Positions 22,958-34,736 are shown, counted from the stretch's first letter. The stretch: 54,375 nt of DNA from Tissierellia bacterium (GCA_012518035.1 JAAYTL010000050.1:1-54375), one strand, 5' to 3'. Translations and numbers: made by a program. Notes: generated by a model from the letters alone, not told the origin.

Positions 22958-24379
22958 TTGGCCAATGCAAATCTCTACAGTCTTCTTCCCAAGGTGGATG
23001 AATTATTAGAAGATAAAAGTATACAGGAATTATTAGATAAAATACCCAGAAGTCTTGTCTTGGATGTTATAAGACAGGAACTAGACACCCTCAGGGCTAG
23101 TATAAGGGAGAACAAGCTAGATAAAGAAGAACTTAAAGGCCAGCTTGATGGCCTGGTTGCTAGGATTAGCAGAAGGGCAAATCAAGAAGCCAGCTACAAG
23201 TTTAAAAGGGTCATCAATGCCACAGGAGTAATTATCCATACCAACCTGGGCAGGTCCCTTTTAAATGATAAAATCCTTGATAATATCAAGGAAATCGCCA
23301 GTAACTATTCCAATTTAGAATACGATTTGCAATCAGCTAAGAGGGGCTCTAGATATTCCATCATCGAGTCCCTAATCTGTGAAATCACAGGGGCGGAAGC
23401 AGCCTTGGTAGTAAATAACAATGCAGCAGCCGTCCTCCTAGCCCTTAGCACCCTGGCCAAGGGTAGGGAGGTCATAGTCTCCAGGGGTGAACTTATAGAA
23501 ATTGGAGGCTCCTTTAGGATTCCAGAGGTTATGGAGGAGAGTGGGGCCATCCTTAGAGAGGTAGGTACCACCAATAAAACCCACCTTAGGGACTATGAAA
23601 ATGTCATAGGGGAAGAAACAGCTGCCCTATTAAAGGTTCATACATCCAATTATAGGATTTTAGGTTTTACATCATCGGTATCCATTAAGGAGCTAGTGGA
23701 TTTAAAGACTAAGTACCAAATCCCCCTAATCGAGGACTTGGGAAGTGGGGTCTTGGTAGACTTGGCTAAATATGGTCTTAACCATGAACCTACAGTCCAA
23801 GAATCCCTGGCTAATGGGGCAGATGTAGTAACCTTTAGTGGGGATAAGCTCTTAGGAGGGCCCCAGGCAGGGATTATCTTAGGGAAAAAAGAGCATATAT
23901 CCCTGATGAAGCAAAACCCCCTCACCAGGGCCATCAGGGTGGATAAGTTCACCTTAGCTGCCCTAGAGGTAACGTTAAGATACTATTTGGATGAGGAAAG
24001 AGCCCTTAGGGAAATACCTACCTTAAGGATGTTAACCATGCCCATAGCTGAAATAGAAGCCAAGGCTAAGAATCTCTTAGACCTGATAGAAGGTCAGGGA
24101 CTTGACAAAGCCTTTACCTTGGAAATCCAGGATGACTTCTCAGAAGTAGGAGGTGGCTCCCTGCCCTTAGAGGAGCTGGCTACCAAGTGCCTGGTTCTAA
24201 GCTCAGATAAATACAAGATTGAATCAATTGAAGGCCTTTTAAGGGGCTTTAACCCACCAATTATCACACGGATTTATAGGGATAGGATCTACTTTGACTT
24301 AAGAACCATAAAAGAAGGAGAGTTTAAGACAATTGTGGAAGGTCTAACCCATGTAGCAAATACTTTGAGGGAGAGTTGA
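22958..24379 (+). CDS. selA: L-seryl-tRNA(Sec) selenium transferase
   Basis: 473 aa from TTG 22958 (RBS AGAGGAAGTG). It shows the SelA N-terminal helical domain, then the PLP fold with [20 protein letters not shown] (about residues 72-91), [28 protein letters not shown] and [13 protein letters not shown], whose Lys (about residue 295) binds PLP. It converts Ser-tRNA(Sec) to Sec-tRNA(Sec) using the selenophosphate from SelD. It lies 18 bases after selD and overlaps the selB reading frame opening. Confidence 0.97.
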
Positions 24380-24381
24380 GG

Positions 24382-26295
24382 ATGAAGCATTTTATTATAG
24401 GTACAGCAGGCCATATAGACCATGGTAAAACCACCCTAATAAGAGCCCTAACTGGTAGAAATACAGATAGGTTGAAAGAAGAGCAGAAGAGGGGTATTTC
24501 CATTGATTTAGGCTTTACCTACTTCGATTTACCTAGTGGTCAGCGGGCTGGAATAATAGATGTTCCCGGTCATGAAAAATTCATAAAGAACATGTTGGCA
24601 GGAGTAATGGGGATGGACATAGTCATCCTAGTTGTGGCTGCCGATGAAGGTATCATGCCGCAAACAGAGGAGCATCTCTCCATACTAAATCTCCTGGGTA
24701 TAGAGAGGGGCTTCGTAGTCCTGACCAAGGTAGATCTAGTTGATGATGAATGGCTAGATATGGTTGAAGAAGAGGTAAGAGAAGAAATCAAGGGAACCTT
24801 CCTAGAAACTAGTCCCATCCTCAAGGTGTCATCCACCAAGAAGGAGGGAATCCAGGAGGTCATTAACTTAATAGATGAATACGTTAAGGATATAGAAGAA
24901 AGGGATATATCGGAGATGCCCCGAATCCCCATAGACAGGGTCTTTAGCCTGTCTGGTTTTGGAACGGTAATCACTGGTACCCTACTATCAGGCAGTCTAA
25001 GAATAGGAGATGAAGTCCAGATATATCCAGGCAGGACCACAGCCAGGATAAGGAATCTGCAGGTACATGACGAAGACAGGGAGATAGCCTATGCAGGCCA
25101 AAGGGTGGCTGTTAACCTGGCAGGCCTTAAGAAGGACCAGGTTAATAGGGGGGATGTCCTAGCCCCCATAGACCAGATGAAGGAGACCAGGCTTTTAGAT
25201 GTCAAAATCAAGCTCCTAGACAAGGTAGATATAGTCTTAAGGCCCAGGACCAGGTTGAGGCTTTATATGGGCACCAAGGAACTCTTCTGTAGGATAGTAC
25301 TCTTGGATAAGGAAGTCCTAAATCCAGGTGAGGAGGCCTATGCCCAACTTAGACTTGAGGAAGAAATAGTGGCCAAGAGGGGAGATAGGTTCATCCTTAG
25401 ATTCTATTCCCCCATGTTTACCATTGGTGGAGGACTTGTACTAGAGCCCCACCCAGGTAAAAAGAAGGCAGGAGATGAGAAGGCCCTTGCTGAGTTAAGG
25501 CTAAAGGAGAAGGGCAGCCAGGAAGAAATTTTGGAAACCATAATCAAGGATAAGAGCCAGGACTTCTTAACGATAAAAGAATATGCAAGTATTACTTCCA
25601 TGCTAGAGAAGAACCTACTTGAGGAAGTAGATAGACTAAATGAGAATGGTAGGGTTATCTTATTTAACCTGACCAAGGACAAATACGTTATCCACCGAGA
25701 CTTTTATAAGGAAGTTAAAAATCAGATTTTAAGTGAAGTAGCAGGCTACCATAAGAAATATCCCCTCAGACCTGGTATGCCTAAGGAGCTAGTTAGGAGA
25801 AAGTTCCTGAAAAATGCCACACCCAGGCTGGGAGATTCCTTCATCCAAAGACTAATTGATGAAGGGGATTTGGACCAGAATCTAGAAGTCCTTAAAATAA
25901 GGGACTTCAAGATAGTCTATAATGATGAACAAGACAAGATAAAAGAAGCAATTATAGGAAATTATAAAAAAGCCCTTTATAAAATACCAAAAGTTGACGA
26001 CATGATAAATAGTATGACTTTTAAGAGGGAGGACTTCCTAGAAGTCTTTAATTCCTTGTATCATGCTGGGGAACTTATCCGGTTAGATGATGAAATCTTT
26101 ATCTTAAAGGGTTTGTATGACAAGTCCCAGGATATCTTGAAGGATTATATCAGAAAAAATGGCAGCATAACAGTTGCAGAATTCAGGGACTTATTGGATA
26201 CAAATAGGAAGATTACCCTAGCCTTATTGGAATCCTTTGACCAACAAGGACTGACTAGACGGGTAGAAGACAAGAGGTTTTTGACAAATCTTTAG
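24382..26295 (+). CDS. selB: Selenocysteine-specific elongation factor SelB
   Basis: About 637 aa. The N-terminus [19 protein letters not shown] contains G1; [13 protein letters not shown] is G3, and [10 protein letters not shown] is G4. EF-Tu-like domains II/III follow, and four winged-helix domains occupy about residues 380-637 and recognise the SECIS hairpin. It brings Sec-tRNA(Sec) to the ribosome at SECIS-coupled UGA codons. The frame opens at TTG 24376 overlapping the selA stop, but ATG 24382 gives the usual SelB N-terminus. Third gene of the selDAB set. Confidence 0.96.
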
Positions 26296-27052: not shown

Positions 27053-28363
27053 ATGTCTGTGAAAGCAGGTTTTATTGTACCACATCCTCCCCTAATAATT
27101 CCTGAAATAGGTAGGGGAGAGGAAAGGAAGATACAGAAAACTATTGACTCATATGACAGGATTGCAAGAGAGATTTCCCAAATAAAACCGGATACCATCA
27201 TAATAACAACCCCCCACTCTATAGCCTATTCCGATTATTTTCATATTTCACCTGGGGATAAGGCCAAGGGTGATTTTAGGACCTTTGGACAGGGCAAGGT
27301 ATCCATGGAAGTAGAATACGATAAGGACCTAGCCCTGTATATTTCCAAGGAAGCAGAGAAGTATGGAATAGACGCAGGAGGGATGGGGGCCAGGGAAAGA
27401 CATCTAGACCATGGTTCTACAGTTCCCCTGTATTTTGTAAACAAGTATTATACCGACTATAAGCTTGTCAGAATCTCCATATCAGGCCTATCCTTGGAAA
27501 AACATTATGAGTTCGGAAAAGTCATAGGTCAGGTTATAGATGAGATGGGCAAGAAGGTAGTATTTATAGCTAGTGGGGATTTGTCCCACAGGCTCAAGGA
27601 GGATGGGCCCTATGGCTTTAGGGAAGAAGGACCCATCTTTGACAGGCAGGTCACCGAGGCCATGGCAAGTGGAGACTTGTCCAAGCTTCTTGAATTCGAT
27701 GCCTCCTTCCTAGATGCAGCAGGAGAGTGTGGCCTCAGGTCATTCTTGATAATGGCTGGTGCCCTGGGGGGCAAAAAGATAAGACCCAGCCTCCTATCCT
27801 ATGAGGGACCCTTTGGTGTTGGCTATGCAGTGGCCTCCTTCCATCTTGAAGAATCCAACGAATACCTTGATTTAGCCCGTAAGGCCTTAGAAAATTACAT
27901 CCTAAACAAGGAAGTAATGGAAAAGCCCAAACACCTAAGTAAAAAGCTTTTAGAAGGCAAGGCAGGGGCCTTTGTAAGCCTACATAAGGATGGAGAACTG
28001 AGGGGCTGCATAGGCACCATAATACCCACAAGGGAAAGCCTGGCCGAAGAAATAATCCATAATGCCATCAGTGCAGGTACAGCTGATCCTAGATTTAGTC
28101 CCGTCACCAAGGATGAATTACCCAGACTGGTTTACAGTGTAGATATAATGGGGGAAATTGAAGAGGTAGACTCCATAGAAGAATTGGACCCAAAGAGATA
28201 TGGTGTAATCGTTTCCAAGGGCTTCAGGAGGGGCCTATTGCTACCCAATCTTGAAGGGATTGATACGGCAGAAAAACAGGTCTATATAGCCCTCCAGAAA
28301 GCCGGAATATCCCCAAGGGAAAAGTATAAGTTGGAGAGATTTGAGGTGGTGAGACACCAGTGA
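27053..28363 (+). CDS. AmmeMemoRadiSam fusion protein: class III dioxygenase-like (B) plus AMMECR1 (A)
   Basis: 436 aa with two domains. Residues 1-260 resemble the LigB/MEMO class III extradiol dioxygenase-like fold (FIVPHPPLIIPEIGRG, TTPHSIAYSDYFH, LDHGSTVPLYF, ASGDLSHRL), with several His that could bind metal. Residues about 275-436 are AMMECR1 (AGAFVSLHKDGELRGCIGT, about 304-322, containing the invariant LRGCIG). The two are usually separate genes in the AmmeMemoRadiSam system (TIGR04335/04336/04337); here they are fused. Function is unknown. The stop codon overlaps the radical SAM gene start by 4 bases. Confidence 0.9.
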   Translation: MSVKAGFIVPHPPLIIPEIGRGEERKIQKTIDSYDRIAREISQIKPDTIIITTPHSIAYSDYFHISPGDKAKGDFRTFGQGKVSMEVEYDKDLALYISKEAEKYGIDAGGMGARERHLDHGSTVPLYFVNKYYTDYKLVRISISGLSLEKHYEFGKVIGQVIDEMGKKVVFIASGDLSHRLKEDGPYGFREEGPIFDRQVTEAMASGDLSKLLEFDASFLDAAGECGLRSFLIMAGALGGKKIRPSLLSYEGPFGVGYAVASFHLEESNEYLDLARKALENYILNKEVMEKPKHLSKKLLEGKAGAFVSLHKDGELRGCIGTIIPTRESLAEEIIHNAISAGTADPRFSPVTKDELPRLVYSVDIMGEIEEVDSIEELDPKRYGVIVSKGFRRGLLLPNLEGIDTAEKQVYIALQKAGISPREKYKLERFEVVRHQ

Positions 28364-29190
28364 CTACTCAAACCTGCAATATCTGCCCCCACAAATGTAA
28401 ATTAAGGGAGGACCAAACCGGCATATGCAGGGCCCGGAAAAATGTCAAGGGAGAAATTATATCTGTAAACTATGGACATGTAACCAGCCTAGCCCTTGAC
28501 CCCATTGAAAAAAAGCCCCTAAAGAGGTTTATGCCAGGGACCAATATCCTGTCTATAGGTAGTTTTGGCTGCAACCTCAGATGCTCCTTCTGCCAAAACC
28601 ATGAAATCGCCATGGCATCAGAGCCCAGGGTCTACTCAAAACACATGGAACCAGAGGAATTAATCCAGCTAGCCATAGAAACAAGGGACAGGGGCAACAT
28701 AGGCATAGCCTATACCTACAATGAACCCCTTATAGGATACGAGTACGTAAGGGACTCTTCAATCCTAGCCAGGGAAAAGGGGCTAAAAAACGTAGCTGTT
28801 ACCAATGGCTACTTTAACCAGGAACCCATGAAGGAGCTCCTTCCCTATATAGATGCCCTAAATATAGACTTAAAGGCCTTTACCAAGGACTTTTACAAGA
28901 GGATTGGTGGAGACCTGGATAGGGTGAAGGATTTTATCAAATTAGCTTCCAATTACAGCCATGTGGAAGTTACCACCCTGATTATTCCCGGTGAAAATGA
29001 TAATGAAGATGAAATCAGGGATTTATCCGAATTCTTAGCATCCATCAGCCCTGACATACCCCTTCACCTCACCAGATTCTTCCCCAGATACAAGTTGACA
29101 GGCAAGCTCCCTACCAGTGTTAGGAAGATCTTTAATCTAGCAGATATAGCAAGAGAAAGCTTAAATTATGTATATGAAGGCAACATTTAA
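28360..29190 (+). CDS. amrS: AmmeMemoRadiSam system radical SAM enzyme
   Basis: 276 aa from GTG 28360, coupled to the preceding gene. The radical SAM cluster motif is CNLRCSFCQ (about residues 70-78), with extra N-terminal cysteines CNICPHKC and GICRAR that may hold a further metal site, plus AYTYNEPLIGYEYV (about 113-126). It belongs to the PflA-like family; the substrate is unknown, though the permanent link with the MEMO and AMMECR1 partners suggests it acts on or with them. Followed by a terminator. Confidence 0.93.
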   Translation: MTTQTCNICPHKCKLREDQTGICRARKNVKGEIISVNYGHVTSLALDPIEKKPLKRFMPGTNILSIGSFGCNLRCSFCQNHEIAMASEPRVYSKHMEPEELIQLAIETRDRGNIGIAYTYNEPLIGYEYVRDSSILAREKGLKNVAVTNGYFNQEPMKELLPYIDALNIDLKAFTKDFYKRIGGDLDRVKDFIKLASNYSHVEVTTLIIPGENDNEDEIRDLSEFLASISPDIPLHLTRFFPRYKLTGKLPTSVRKIFNLADIARESLNYVYEGNI

Positions 29191-29193
29191 CCA

Positions 29194-29219
29194 GACCCAC
29201 CTTAGAAAGGTGGGTTTTT
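29194..29219 (+). terminator. Intrinsic terminator after the AmmeMemoRadiSam genes
   Basis: CCCACCTT (29196-29203), loop AGA, AAGGTGGG (29207-29214), followed by TTTTTG. It is the first clear plus-strand terminator after comEA, so comEA through amrS may be one transcript. Confidence 0.88.
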
Positions 29220-29227
29220 GTCTTTAC

Positions 29228-29257
29228 TTGATATGGTTTCCATATTAAGGATATAAT
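29228..29257 (+). promoter_or_regulatory. Sigma-A-type promoter for the hydantoinase-deacetylase pair
   Basis: TTGATA (29228-29233), 18-base spacer, TATAAT (29252-29257), about 33 bases upstream of the TTG start codon at 29290. Confidence 0.7.
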
Positions 29258-29289
29258 TATGGTAGGAGAGTAGAGGAAGGAGGATAAAC

Positions 29290-30966
29290 TTGATAGTAGC
29301 TATTGATATGGGTGGTACCAATATAGATGGAGTAATAGTAGAAGAGGGAAGAATCATAAAAACCATCAAGAGGCCCACAGACAGGTCCAATCTATTTAAC
29401 ACCATCTATTTCACCCTTAAGGAGCTTTTAGAAAATCAAGACAAGTCAAAAATCACTAGGATTAACCTAAGCACAACAGTTTCCACCAATGCCATAGTGG
29501 AGGATAAGATTACCCCAGTAGGCATGATAATCCAACCAGGACCAGGCTTGCCCTATGAGAATCTTGCCTGTGGCAGGGAAAATGCCTTTATATCAGGCTA
29601 CATAGACCATAGGGGGAATGTGGTTGAAAAAATGGATACAGCTGAAATAGTGGCTATAGGTGATAGATTTGTGGCAGCTGGAATTGAAGCTTGTGGTGTG
29701 GTTACAAAATTTTCCACCAGGAATCCCCAACATGAAACCATGATTAGGGATTTACTAGGAGATAGGTTTGCCACCATCACCCTGGGACACACCATGTCAG
29801 GCAAGTTAAACTTCCCTAGAAGGGTATATACCGCCTACTTAAACTCAGCAGTACATAGTAGCTTCTATAACTTTGCCACCAATATTAAGAAATCTCTTGA
29901 AGAAGAGGGTGTAGCTGTCCCTATCTATATCTTAAAGGCTGATGGGGGAACCATGAGCCTGGAGGCAGCCCAAGAAAAGCCTGTGGAAACCATTCTGTCA
30001 GGACCTGCTGCCAGCTTTATGGGTATAAGAGCCCTCCTGCCTACAGATGAGGATGCAGTCCTTCTTGATATAGGCGGGACCACTACTGACATCTTCTTTC
30101 TGGCAGATGGAGTCCCCCTCTTCCAACCCCTAGGGATAAAGATTAGGGAATACAAGACCCTGGTAAGGGCTATCTACAGTGTCTCCATGGGTCTCGGCGG
30201 TGACAGTAGTATTGATTTGATAGATAATAAAATCAAGATAGGTCCTGAAAGAAAAGGCAAGCCCTACGCCTATGGAGGACCTAAGGCTACCCCGACGGAT
30301 GCCATGATGGTCTTAGGTCTACTGGAGGCTGAAGCAGGAGTTAAGGCAAGGGCAGAGGAGGCCTTGGATGTTATAGGTAAGGTCTTAAATTTGAACACCA
30401 TCGAAACAGCTACCCTAATCCTAGATACCATGGGAGAGATGATTAAGTCTAAGTTACAAGGGCTTTTAGAGGAGATTAATAGCCAGCCAGTATACACCAT
30501 AAAGGAATTATTGTACGGAAAAAAGCTAGAACCCAAGCTAATCAATATAATAGGAGGACCAGCCAAGATATTAGCCCCCATCCTAGAGAAGAAATTAGGC
30601 CTGCCCTGCAATTATCCCTCTAATTACCTGGTAGCCAATGCCATAGGAGCTGCCCTGGCCCGCCCAACCATGGAGATTAGCATGCATGTAGATACCTCAA
30701 AGAAGATACTCAGCGTTCCAGAGTTGGAGCTTTATGAAAGGGTTAAGTCTAGCTTTAGTTTAAGTGATGCTAAAGAAAGAGCCTTAAACTTAATCCATGA
30801 GCATGCCCAGAAGACAGGAATGCCATGGGATGTAGAGGCAGAGATAATCGAAGAAACTAGCTTTAACATGGTAAGGGGGTTTTACAGCTCAGGCAAGGAT
30901 ATCAGGGTTAAGGCCCAGATAAGACCAGGCCTTATTCAGGAGTTAAGGAGTGATGAAAATGCTTAA
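29290..30966 (+). CDS. Hydantoinase/oxoprolinase family protein (HyuA-like ATPase)
   Basis: 558 aa from TTG 29290 with RBS GGAAGGAGGATAAAC. It has the actin-like ATPase motifs of the HyuA/OplA/acetone carboxylase beta family: AIDMGGTNIDGVIVEEG (about residues 4-20), STTVSTNAIVE (about 61-71), LSGPAASFMG, and DIGGTTTDIFFL (about 260-271). Members couple ATP hydrolysis to activation of amide or ketone carbonyls. There is no HyuB partner; the next gene is a deacetylase-fold protein overlapping its end. The substrate cannot be deduced. Confidence 0.88.
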   Translation: MIVAIDMGGTNIDGVIVEEGRIIKTIKRPTDRSNLFNTIYFTLKELLENQDKSKITRINLSTTVSTNAIVEDKITPVGMIIQPGPGLPYENLACGRENAFISGYIDHRGNVVEKMDTAEIVAIGDRFVAAGIEACGVVTKFSTRNPQHETMIRDLLGDRFATITLGHTMSGKLNFPRRVYTAYLNSAVHSSFYNFATNIKKSLEEEGVAVPIYILKADGGTMSLEAAQEKPVETILSGPAASFMGIRALLPTDEDAVLLDIGGTTTDIFFLADGVPLFQPLGIKIREYKTLVRAIYSVSMGLGGDSSIDLIDNKIKIGPERKGKPYAYGGPKATPTDAMMVLGLLEAEAGVKARAEEALDVIGKVLNLNTIETATLILDTMGEMIKSKLQGLLEEINSQPVYTIKELLYGKKLEPKLINIIGGPAKILAPILEKKLGLPCNYPSNYLVANAIGAALARPTMEISMHVDTSKKILSVPELELYERVKSSFSLSDAKERALNLIHEHAQKTGMPWDVEAEIIEETSFNMVRGFYSSGKDIRVKAQIRPGLIQELRSDENA

Positions 30967-32269
30967 GGCTAAAAATAAGCTGGGCCTAGTATTCTTCCCA
31001 GCCTTCGATTGGAGAATCAGTCCCAGCCATCCAGAGCGGGAAGAGCGACTACTATACACCCAGGACCAGCTTTCTGAAGAAGGCATAGAAGATATAGAAG
31101 GAATCAAGTTTTATAACCCATCCCTAGCTGAAGAAAGGGACATTGAAAGGGTGCATTTTTGCGTACCTGATGTAAAATCCAGGGTCACTGAATCCCATTT
31201 GATTTCAGCTGGGGGAGTCATTAAAAGCTTAGAAATGGTAATGACAAAGCAGGTAGACAAGGCCTTTGCCTTGACCCGACCCCCAGGCCACCATGCCCAG
31301 AGAGTTGTATATGGGGATAGAGGCTTCTGTATTATAAATGTAGAAGCCGTGGCTATTGAGAAGATTAGGCAAAAATATGGCAAGCTCCGGGTGGCCATAG
31401 TAGATACGGACTGCCACCATGGAGATGGAACAGAGGATATCTACTGGAATGACAAGGATACCCTGGTCATATCCTTCCACCAAGATGGAAGGACCCTCTA
31501 TCCTGGAACAGGCTTCATAAATGAGATGGGCGGCCCAGGAGGTTATGGATATAATGTCAACATCCCCCTACCACCAGGAACAGGAGAGGAAGGCTTCCTC
31601 TATGTTTTAGATAATTTAGTTATGCCCATACTTGAAGACTATAAACCGGATTTAATCATAAACTCCGCAGGGCAAGACAACCACTACACCGATCCCTTGA
31701 CCAGCATGAACTTCACAGCCCAAGGCTATGCCCAACTAAATGAGAGGTTAAACCCAGATTTAGCCGTCCTAGAAGGGGGCTACTCCATAGAAGGGGCCCT
31801 GCCCTATGTCAACCTGGGCATTATCCTAGCCATGGCTGGTTTGGACTATACCAAGGTCAAGGAGCCAGACTATAATAAGGAGAAGCTGAGACAATCTAGA
31901 GATATAACCGACTACATCAAGAAAACCACCGACACAGTCTATAGGCAGTGGCAGATGAAGGATGATTTATATATAAGAAACATTAGGGGACGGGACTATA
32001 TCCAGGAAAACAAGCGAATCTACTATGATACTGACGGCATAATGGAAAACCAGGTTCGAAGGTTCAAGGTCTGTAACAAGTGCACAGGAGTCAACACCAT
32101 CGATTCCAGCAACGATAGGGGAAGGCACATACTTGCCATAACTATTCCAAGGGATGCCTGCTCCAGCTGTCTAGACGAGGGTTATAGACTATACAAGACC
32201 ACATCCCATAGATACACCAACGTATATTTGCAAGACAGGGTCAATGACCAGTATCTGATTAAAGAGTAA
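30959..32269 (+). CDS. Histone deacetylase-family amidohydrolase with C-terminal Cys motifs
   Basis: 436 aa. The deacetylase fold has PSHPEREERL, TRPPGHH (about residues 104-110), DTDCHHGDG (149-157; Asp151 and His153 as zinc ligands), SAGQD (Asp240, third ligand) and LEGGY with the catalytic Tyr. Beyond residue about 330 is a tail with CNKC (372-375) and CSSC (401-404), a likely zinc ribbon not found in typical acetoin-utilisation or acetylpolyamine enzymes. The ATG at 30959 has AAGGAG (30945-30950) at correct spacing. It overlaps the HyuA-like gene by 8 bases, so the two are co-translated. Confidence 0.88.
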   Translation: MLKAKNKLGLVFFPAFDWRISPSHPEREERLLYTQDQLSEEGIEDIEGIKFYNPSLAEERDIERVHFCVPDVKSRVTESHLISAGGVIKSLEMVMTKQVDKAFALTRPPGHHAQRVVYGDRGFCIINVEAVAIEKIRQKYGKLRVAIVDTDCHHGDGTEDIYWNDKDTLVISFHQDGRTLYPGTGFINEMGGPGGYGYNVNIPLPPGTGEEGFLYVLDNLVMPILEDYKPDLIINSAGQDNHYTDPLTSMNFTAQGYAQLNERLNPDLAVLEGGYSIEGALPYVNLGIILAMAGLDYTKVKEPDYNKEKLRQSRDITDYIKKTTDTVYRQWQMKDDLYIRNIRGRDYIQENKRIYYDTDGIMENQVRRFKVCNKCTGVNTIDSSNDRGRHILAITIPRDACSSCLDEGYRLYKTTSHRYTNVYLQDRVNDQYLIKE

Positions 32270-32278
32270 GCTCATCAG

Positions 32279-32316
32279 CCTCCTTCGTAATATAAGACCC
32301 CGGAGGAGGTTTTTCC
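32279..32316 (+). terminator. Intrinsic terminator after the deacetylase-family gene
   Basis: CCTCCTTCG (32279-32287) pairs with CGGAGGAGG (32311-32319 region, one G-T pair) across a loop of about 23 bases, followed by TTTTTCC. The remaining 140 bases before the next gene hold only a weak promoter-like TTGTCA (32357-32362). Confidence 0.75.
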
Positions 32317-32463: not shown

Positions 32464-33162
32464 GTGAAAATAGTAGTTCTGCACGGTCAGTCACACAAGG
32501 GGAGTACTTACAATATTACTAAGCTATTCATTGAGAATATTTCAGATGATGACACAGAGCTAGTAGAGTTTTTTATGCCCAAGGATACACCACCATTTTG
32601 CCTAGGCTGTTTTAATTGCTTTGAAAAAGGGGAGGACAATTGTCCCCATGCAGATAAGGTCCAACCCCTTGTTCAAGCAATTGATGATGCTGACTTGTTG
32701 ATATTGGAATCTCCCTGCTATGTATTTGGGATGAGTGGTCAGCTGAAAACCTTTCTTGACCATTTAGCCTATAGGTGGATGGCCCATAGGCCCCATCCTA
32801 GAATGTTTAGTAAGGTAGGACTGGTTATTTCTACAGCTGCAGGTGCAGGTACAAAAAGTGTCACAAAATCCCTAAAGACTAATCTATTTTATTGGGGAGT
32901 ACCTAAGGTCTACTCTTATGGCAAAAATGTTGCAGCATCAAGCTGGGAGGCTGTAAAACCTGAAAAGAAGTTAAAGATTGAAAAGGAAGTAAAAAAGAAA
33001 TCCAGTCAAATATCTAGCCAGATTGGCAAGGTAAGGCCGGGGTTAAAAACAAAAATATTATTTCTAATTATGAGAATGGCTCAAAAGGCCAATAACTGGA
33101 ATCCTACTGATAAGGACTACTGGATAAGGAACGGTTGGTTAGACTCTTCTAGGCCTTGGTAA
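32464..33162 (+). CDS. Flavodoxin-fold NAD(P)H-dependent oxidoreductase
   Basis: 232 aa. Begins KIVVLHGQSHKGSTYNITKL (the FMN phosphate-binding loop, about residues 2-21), then CLGCFNCFEKGEDNCPH (about 48-64) and ESPCYVFGMSGQLKTFLDHL (about 79-98), typical of iron-sulfur/flavodoxin NADPH reductases of the FMN_red type. The paired Cys resemble ISF-type members but no full 4Fe-4S pattern is seen. Base composition matches neighbours less closely (more A-rich). GTG start at 32464. Confidence 0.88.
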   Translation: MKIVVLHGQSHKGSTYNITKLFIENISDDDTELVEFFMPKDTPPFCLGCFNCFEKGEDNCPHADKVQPLVQAIDDADLLILESPCYVFGMSGQLKTFLDHLAYRWMAHRPHPRMFSKVGLVISTAAGAGTKSVTKSLKTNLFYWGVPKVYSYGKNVAASSWEAVKPEKKLKIEKEVKKKSSQISSQIGKVRPGLKTKILFLIMRMAQKANNWNPTDKDYWIRNGWLDSSRPW

Positions 33163-33234: not shown

Positions 33235-33534
33235 ATGAATCAAGTAATAGGAGTATGCGGATGCATTTGTAGCGATTGTAGGATTTACGGAATAGAGTGT
33301 GATGGGTGCCATGCAATAGAAGGAAAGGCATGTTGGTTAGATGAAGTAGGGCTAGAAATCTGTGATTTTTATGAGTGCAGTGTAATTGATAAAAACCTAA
33401 ATCACTGCGGCGAATGTACAGAAATACCATGTAGTAAATTCTGGGAGAATAAAAACCCTAAATGGACAGATGAAGAGCATAGGAGAATAGTAAATGAGCG
33501 AGTCATTTTGCTGAAAGGGCTAACTCAAGGATAA
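33235..33534 (+). CDS. DUF3795-like cysteine-rich protein
   Basis: 99 aa with 13 cysteines, opening VCGCICSDCRIYG (about residues 7-19) then CDGCHA, CWLDEV, CDFYECS, CGECTEIPCSKFW. This layout fits DUF3795, a small probable metal- or cluster-binding family of unknown function. ATG 33235 follows GGGGGATTAGAA. Isolated, with 72 bases before it and a decaying region after it. Confidence 0.8.
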   Translation: MNQVIGVCGCICSDCRIYGIECDGCHAIEGKACWLDEVGLEICDFYECSVIDKNLNHCGECTEIPCSKFWENKNPKWTDEEHRRIVNERVILLKGLTQG

Positions 33535-33605: not shown

Positions 33606-33868
33606 ATGGTTGAGAAAAATAAGAAGCTGACTAGGCTTAGATATAAAGTAGGAATGATAGGTATAATCACAATCATTCTTATAGCTTTCTACATCAAGTC
33701 TAACCCTAAGTTAAGCGTATTTACTGAAACTAATCTAGATCCTAACCAAAGTGATTTCGACCTTGAAATTACCAATTTGTTGACTGATAAGTTAAACTAC
33801 TTGGGGATACCTGGCATGCAGGTAACCATAATGCTGAATAATGATTTACATAATTATTATAAAGGTGG
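33606..33868 (+). pseudogene. 5' remnant of a serine hydrolase (beta-lactamase family) gene
   Basis: Only about 87 codons remain: an N-terminal membrane anchor (about residues 18-34) and the start of a beta-lactamase-like serine hydrolase (LTDKLNYLGIPGMQVTIMLNN, split here around residues 58-78). The reading stops at a TAA just after YYKGG, before any SxxK motif. The sequence then continues as the reversed interior of a MATE transporter gene, so the 3' part was deleted. ATG 33606 has TTGGGGGAATCTGT upstream and could still be translated into a useless peptide. Confidence 0.75.
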
Positions 33869-34736
33869 TTAATGCAACACTAAAGCTTGTAATTGGCAAA
33901 AATGCAAAACCCTCAAGTTTTGAGAAACTGCCACTACCTGCCATGGCGACTGAACCAAACTGATTAATATTTGACTGAACAATTACATTAGCAAATGCAA
34001 TAACTGAGTTTTGAACACCAGTAGGTAAACCCATATTCACTAAGCTCTTAAGCATATTACCGTCAATTTTAATTTTCCTAATGTATAATTTATGGTAGCC
34101 ATCAACCTTTGTAAGTTTAACAAAGCCTAATATTGCGCTTAAAAATTGAGAGATAACTGTAGCAAGAGCTGCACCAGCTACACCAAAATCAAAGACAGCT
34201 ACAAATAAGATGTCTAAAACTACATTTGTAATTGCTGCTATTATCAGATAATACAGTGGATGTTTACTGTCACCAACTGCCTGGAATATGCCCATACAAG
34301 AATTATACATAACAATTCCAATTCCGCCAGCAAAGTATATTCGTAGATATGTTACAGCATCTAGAAAAACATCATCAGGAGTTCCCATTAACTTTAAAAA
34401 CCATGGAGTGAAGATTACTCCAACGATTGTTATCAAGAGCCCAGATATAAATGCAAATGCCATAGTAGTATGGACAGCAATGGAGACTTTTTCTTCATTT
34501 TTTGCACCGAAGTATCTGGAAATTATTACTCCTGCTCCTACAAATACTCCACCTAAAAAACCCACAATCAAAAAAATTAAGCTGCCTGAAGAACTTACTG
34601 CAGCTAGTGCCTCCTTACCAAGAACATTGCCAACAACAAGAGAATCGACAACATTGTAAAGTTGCTGAAATAGATTACCCAAAAAAATTGGTAATGCAAA
34701 TAACATGATTTTTTTTGAAATATTACCTTCTGTCAA
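33846..34736 (-). pseudogene. C-terminally truncated MATE family efflux transporter
   Basis: 296 codons from a TTG at 34736. The first half of a MATE transporter is intact (SKKIMLFALPIFLGNLFQQL, VDSLVVGNVLGKEALAA, GVFVGAGVIISRYFGAKN), with about seven membrane segments. Homology ends at ALTTF, the point where family members continue into the second repeat (TTFVGQNLGA-type). After it come only IIIM and a stop. Full-length members are about 450 aa, so roughly a third is missing. The break coincides with the end of the serine hydrolase remnant. Confidence 0.8.

Follow-up and report, generated by a model that had tools for sequence, protein, structure and literature searches.

A conserved gene pair of anaerobic bacteria joins a short HyuA-type ATPase to an HDAC-fold zinc hydrolase with a Cys4 tail

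HyuA-type ATPases have been studied mainly as partners of HyuB, and HDAC-fold enzymes mainly as ATP-independent deacylases. In the caprolactamase CapAB, CapA carries out the ATP activation, the lactam is cut at a zinc site of CapB and a tunnel connects the two, and mutation of CapA residues D11 or D295 reduces or abolishes product formation (PMC8453981). Other relatives depart from this plan: the acetone and acetophenone carboxylases (Acx/Apc) combine a HyuA-related ATPase with a Cys4 zinc-finger element in a small gamma subunit (PMC5214803), and a class of short HyuAs (about 515–520 residues) forms tight pairs with DUF917 proteins of the S-methyl-thiohydantoin desulfurase family. On the deacylase side, a 2024 survey of bacterial deacylases mentions neither a pairing with HyuA nor hydantoinases (PMC11532494). 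We found no published description of a HyuA-HDAC pair in an open-access collection of 5.4 million papers. We know of no ATP-driven member of the HDAC superfamily. The gene pair described here is a well-defined, undescribed enzyme system in which both predicted active sites are intact, and it brings these two enzyme types together in hundreds of anaerobes.

The window, i.e., the whole stretch of DNA analysed, comprises 54,375 nucleotides from a Tissierellia bacterium (GCA_012518035.1, JAAYTL010000050.1:1-54375). The pair and its predicted signals are arranged as follows:

29193–29217, plus strand: predicted terminator of the preceding radical-SAM gene, between that gene and the pair (11-bp stem, T tail, RNA fold z −3.3)
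29228–29257, plus strand: predicted sigma-70-like promoter, TTGATA-18-TATAAT (11 of 12 consensus matches)
29278–29283, plus strand: ribosome-binding site AGGAGG of the HyuA-like gene (from the sequence)
29290–30966, plus strand: HyuA-type ASKHA ATPase, short form, 558 amino acids, TTG start (Pfam, AF2/Foldseek, residue mapping)
30945–30950, plus strand: ribosome-binding site AAGGAG of the HDAC gene, within the HyuA reading frame (from the sequence)
30959–32269, plus strand: class II HDAC-fold zinc hydrolase with a C-terminal Cys4 domain, 436 amino acids (Pfam, AF2, residue conservation)
31991–32266, plus strand: C-terminal beta-rich domain, residues 345–436 (Cys4 codons at 32072–32083 and 32159–32170)
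32277–32311, plus strand: predicted terminator 3' of the pair (11-bp stem, 13-nt loop, U run, −15.8 kcal/mol, z −2.5)

The first-pass annotation of this DNA had described the genes as overlapping by 8 bases, and this is confirmed (30959–30966) with the ATG at 30959 as the best start of the HDAC; an in-frame ATG at 30953 and a GTG at 30950 are possible alternatives, but they lie too near the ribosome-binding site. It had also given the pair its own promoter and terminator. A close promoter match and terminator stems are indeed present, but promoter-like matches are not in excess across the region (9 found versus 7.5 expected), so that a separate transcription unit has the standing of a prediction.

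The upstream gene had been assigned to the hydantoinase/oxoprolinase family, and its domains, ATP-site aspartates and fold all bear this out. The protein matches Hydant_A_N (PF05378, E 1e-32) and Hydantoinase_A (PF01968, E 1e-50), with the Pfam match ending at residue 461 and the C-terminal domain of full-length HyuA absent; its homologues are also short, at about 545–565 residues. In the alignment, D6 and D260 correspond to D11 and D295 in the ATP site of CapA, the former being kept in 70 of 71 sequences (with one gap) and the latter in all 71. The AF2 model is confidently predicted as an ASKHA ATPase (pLDDT 90.6), and its Foldseek matches (9h03, 5svc, 5l9w, 6yra) indicate resemblance to N-methylhydantoinase, acetone carboxylase, acetophenone carboxylase and caprolactamase. 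The subfamily carries the signatures DHRG, KFSxRNP, GHxxSGxLNFPRR, LKADGGT and GLGGDS. Another type of HyuA, of about 650 residues, occurs at two loci (L167 and L168); it is 35–37% identical to the paired protein, has the GGDS motif in common with it and is possibly its sister family. The L168 gene follows one that resembles, by eye, a B12-dependent methionine synthase activation domain.

The downstream protein matches the Hist_deacetyl family (PF00850, E 7e-66). Its AF2 model (pLDDT 89.9; best PDB match 8szu, TM 0.82 by target length) confidently places an HDAC fold at residues 1–295, followed by a helical linker and then the beta-rich domain. All zinc ligands had been reported as present, and so they are: D151, H153 and D240 are kept by all 83 family sequences, as are Y275 and the tandem H111/H112. 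The C-terminal CxxC pairs lie exactly where they had been placed, at 372–375 and 401–404, and Cys 372, 375, 401 and 404 are likewise found in every one of the 83 members. A DNH motif following the second zinc-ligand Asp is also invariant in the paired family, and position 239, immediately before this Asp, is Gln in 83/83 sequences versus Phe in HDAC6, a substitution from which the pocket is predicted to differ from that of a standard deacetylase. Near the N-terminus, the conserved stretch around FDWAISP has low confidence in the monomer model (pLDDT about 50), which makes it a possible interface with a partner. For the Cys4 tail, no credible match was obtained in Pfam or the PDB; the weak Pfam matches that recur and score best are to zinc ribbons of a generic kind and to the DnaJ CxxCxG motif.

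Conserved adjacency in other genomes was the feature on which the first-pass annotation had staked the link between the two genes, and it is pronounced. Within the order of the window genome, 25 of 199 genomes carry the paired-type HDAC (64–81% identity for full-length copies), and in all 25 the HyuA gene lies directly upstream in the same orientation. The reverse search retrieved the HyuA subfamily (at least 49% identity) from those 25 genomes and from one more (G110), where the contig ends 122 bp after HyuA; other HyuA matches in the order are of different types and below 38% identity. Co-occurrence of the two genes is very strong (Fisher p 7e-31, calculated over related genomes that are not independent), and all HDAC-family genes that the Pfam model retrieved from 120 genomes of the order were of the paired type. 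A scan of 84,980 species, with one genome per species, yielded at least 548 relatives; among the best 80 of these (58–78% identity), which come from Bacillota, Desulfobacterota and a few other lineages that are mostly metagenome-derived, HyuA is immediately upstream of the HDAC in 78. The two exceptions are a locus at a contig edge (L069) and one in which an intact HyuA is found on another contig of the genome (L093).

The tail-bearing HDAC family as a whole, spread over Bacillota, Desulfobacterota and other anaerobic lineages, retains 58–81% identity over its full length. Its tree has one side that is mainly Bacillota and another that is mainly Desulfobacterota, with some scattered labels that could reflect transfer or mis-binning. 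A mirror-tree comparison of HyuA and HDAC distances over 68 loci gave r 0.90, the best of 2000 permutations reaching 0.13. The pair is thus a conserved, co-inherited module across hundreds of anaerobic bacteria, and the case for a functional link between its two members is strong. Occasional damaged copies occur: in one genome (G023, locus L037) the HyuA and the HDAC gene are each interrupted by a single in-frame stop codon, and in another (G086, L034) a conserved position of the HDAC is hit by one, which represents either joint decay or assembly error.

Linkage has its limits in the Desulfobacterales, the order of genome G573, where about 132 of 194 sampled genomes, or about two thirds, carry the tail-bearing HDAC (genomes with E below 1e-100, by our count). 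Among the 30 most similar loci of this order, HyuA is adjacent in 19, three lie at a contig end and eight have no HyuA within 1.9–9 kb, so that the unlinked share in this one subclade is 8 of 27 informative loci. These eight HDACs retain the catalytic motifs and the CxxC pairs, and in the one of their genomes that was searched for HyuA elsewhere, it is present. Since the genes can be separated in this subclade, the operon is not obligatory. Ordinary HDACs of the same order (38–44% identity to the paired family) served as a control, and in none of 17 was HyuA found nearby (up to about 3.5 kb either way, depending on the length of the contig). The best matches among plasmid-borne relatives comprise only generic HDACs below 40% identity and HyuAs of the DUF917 type.

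The first-pass annotation had noted that the usual HyuB partner is missing from the locus. The absence extends well beyond the neighbouring genes: HyuB (PF02538) was found nowhere in the window genome and in none of 32 carrier genomes, and control genomes were positive. With HyuB missing, the paired HyuA has to do without its usual partner; the HDAC is the only hydrolase consistently associated with it.

How does the pair compare with the described systems? In common with CapAB, 5-oxoprolinase and N-methylhydantoinase it has an ASKHA HyuA with the ATP-site aspartates, a two-gene layout and a zinc hydrolase as second component (PMC8453981). Unlike the HyuA-HyuB systems, its ATPase is 558 rather than about 690 residues long and has the motifs listed above (here in the core forms SGxLNFPRR and GGDS), its hydrolase has the HDAC/arginase fold, and its genome encodes no HyuB. 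We keep it outside the HyuA-HyuB family because of this last difference; full-length HyuA is lacking as well, although the ASKHA domains and ATP-site aspartates are there. The HyuA-DUF917 pairs offer a parallel of a short HyuA with a non-HyuB partner, but that partner belongs to an unrelated family, their HyuAs are 27–32% identical to ours and carry NDGT and GGGS/T in place of ADGGT and GGDS, and neither the window genome nor 27 of the 32 carriers has DUF917 (PF06032); with an HDAC as its partner, the present HyuA does not belong to this class. The ketone carboxylases can be set aside as well: no HyuB-like beta subunit is present, the Cys4 domain is fused to the HDAC instead of forming a separate subunit, its CxxC pairs are spaced by 25 residues rather than the 49 of Apc gamma (Cys22/25/75/78), and the tail matches no Pfam family or PDB chain. 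Finally, the HDAC resembles the bacterial class II HDAC-like amidohydrolases HdaH, KDAC1, PrpH and DmhA in fold (TM 0.7–0.8 by target length), with about 30% identity and all catalytic residues in common, and differs from them by its Cys4 domain, the Gln before the zinc-ligand Asp and its genetic partner. By its probable working, the pair comes closest to the ATP-dependent two-component amidohydrolases.

We tentatively propose, as the simplest model, that the two genes encode an ATP-dependent amidohydrolase of two components, with the HDAC-fold zinc hydrolase standing in for HyuB. The HyuA-type ASKHA subunit would spend ATP on activating the carbonyl of a cyclic or otherwise stable amide, in the form of a phosphoimidate or an acyl phosphate, and the HDAC-fold zinc subunit would hydrolyse the activated bond, the job of HyuB or CapB in the ATP-dependent hydantoinases and caprolactamase. 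The two proteins would form a physical complex with coupled active sites, the Cys4 domain probably binding a structural zinc ion and perhaps docking the subunits. That HyuA itself phosphorylates a stable amide or lactam and passes it to the HDAC site, which would then be the catalytic subunit, is conceivable, and we put it forward with reserve. The intact catalytic residues of both enzymes, the architecture of CapAB and the existence of short HyuAs with the non-HyuB partner DUF917 point to an ATP-dependent amidohydrolase; against it, HDACs need no ATP, the chemistry does not require coupling, and HyuA is not adjacent in the eight Desulfobacterales loci described above. The earlier idea of ATP-driven amide or lactam activation coupled to deacylation consequently divides in two: the two-gene, HyuB-less module stands, whereas the chemistry fits the CapAB precedent by inference. 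To call it a new pathway goes too far, since the pair sits among unrelated housekeeping genes, which suggests an enzyme acting by itself and not a member of a catabolic gene cluster. This solitary position and the conservation across anaerobic phyla would make metabolite repair or salvage, acting on a common small amide, likelier than catabolism of a rare compound. If the proposal is true, the pair would contain the first HDAC-superfamily enzyme known to us to be driven by ATP, and HyuB would have a non-homologous substitute that is widespread among anaerobic bacteria. The pair could reveal a new ATP-dependent amidase or a new route of small-molecule deacylation in sulfate reducers, acetogens and amino-acid fermenters.

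As to the substrate, PxpA, the usual prokaryotic 5-oxoprolinase component, is present in 2 of 26 carriers versus 45 of 173 non-carriers (p 0.047, not phylogenetically corrected), and its rarity in carriers favours 5-oxoproline or a similar lactam at most weakly.

The two enzymes might instead serve the same pathway through separate reactions, the HDAC deacylating a small N-acyl compound alone and a HyuA kinase phosphorylating the product or precursor, with translational coupling providing co-regulation only. Each active site looks complete alone, the bacterial HDAC-like enzymes are ATP-independent deacylases (PMC11532494), and the genes are separable in Desulfobacterales with both kept in at least one genome, all of which makes this a serious, if somewhat doubtful, alternative. 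Against it, the absence of HyuB deprives HyuA of the partner with which it normally acts, the near-universal pairing and the common tree suggest a tighter link, and no other pathway gene is consistently near the pair in the sampled loci.

A regulatory arrangement is unlikely. Here the HDAC would be a protein lysine deacylase with HyuA, or its activity, as its target or regulator, in the manner of AcuC and AcsA, where a deacylase is likewise linked by operon (PMC11532494); its class II fold is closest to the bacterial HdaH/KDAC proteins and the Cys4 tail might serve for docking, but no acetyltransferase is consistently linked to the pair in the sampled loci. Still less probable is that HyuA spends ATP on activating or assembling the HDAC, or another protein, rather than on phosphorylating the substrate: ASKHA proteins do include activators, and the closest non-paired HyuA relatives include the one next to the activation-domain-like gene, yet none is known among HyuA-type proteins and metal loading of HDACs needs no ATPase.

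A role of the HDAC in EF-P or beta-lysine chemistry, which we regard as very improbable, is prompted by epmA (EF-P lysine aminoacylase, TIGR00462), found directly 3' of the HDAC at L256, L259 and L261 and in about half of the Desulfobacterales loci, on the same strand, usually within 0–130 bp and also where HyuA has moved away. However, epmA is never beside the HDAC in the Bacillota, Syntrophobacterales or Spirochaetota loci, and since other clades have rlmN-hisI-hisG or murB, the adjacency looks like clade-specific operon packing, a lead and not an explanation. Chance or a purely positional neighbourhood, to which a single window or flanks common by synteny within one family could be ascribed, can be practically dismissed given conservation across phyla in differing surroundings and the absence of HyuA beside ordinary HDACs.

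The neighbours of the pair vary by clade, also include MATE transporters and point to no particular substrate. In the window, an AmmeMemoRadiSam system (TIGR04335/04336/04337), consisting of a LigB/Memo-AMMECR1 fusion followed by the radical-SAM gene (27053–29190), ends about 100 bp before the pair. A link to these genes was considered and rejected as a general feature, as they are near the pair only here and in one other genome (G043, L047) and lie elsewhere in 26 others. Neither does a Wood-Ljungdahl connection hold (CdhC, PF03598, occurs in 6 of 199 genomes of the order, one of the six a carrier), nor a role in defence, with no PADLOC model match and housekeeping surroundings. Genes resembling selA and selB lie upstream in the window (22958–26295), and at L262, where HyuA stands alone, selA is about 7 kb away; this recurrence is possibly a coincidence. 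Downstream of the pair, an FMN reductase-like gene (32464–33162) is followed by one for a small Cys-rich DUF3795 protein (33235–33534), and further on, on the minus strand (33846–34736), a MATE-type transporter reading frame of 296 amino acids has an early stop and looks truncated or frameshifted.
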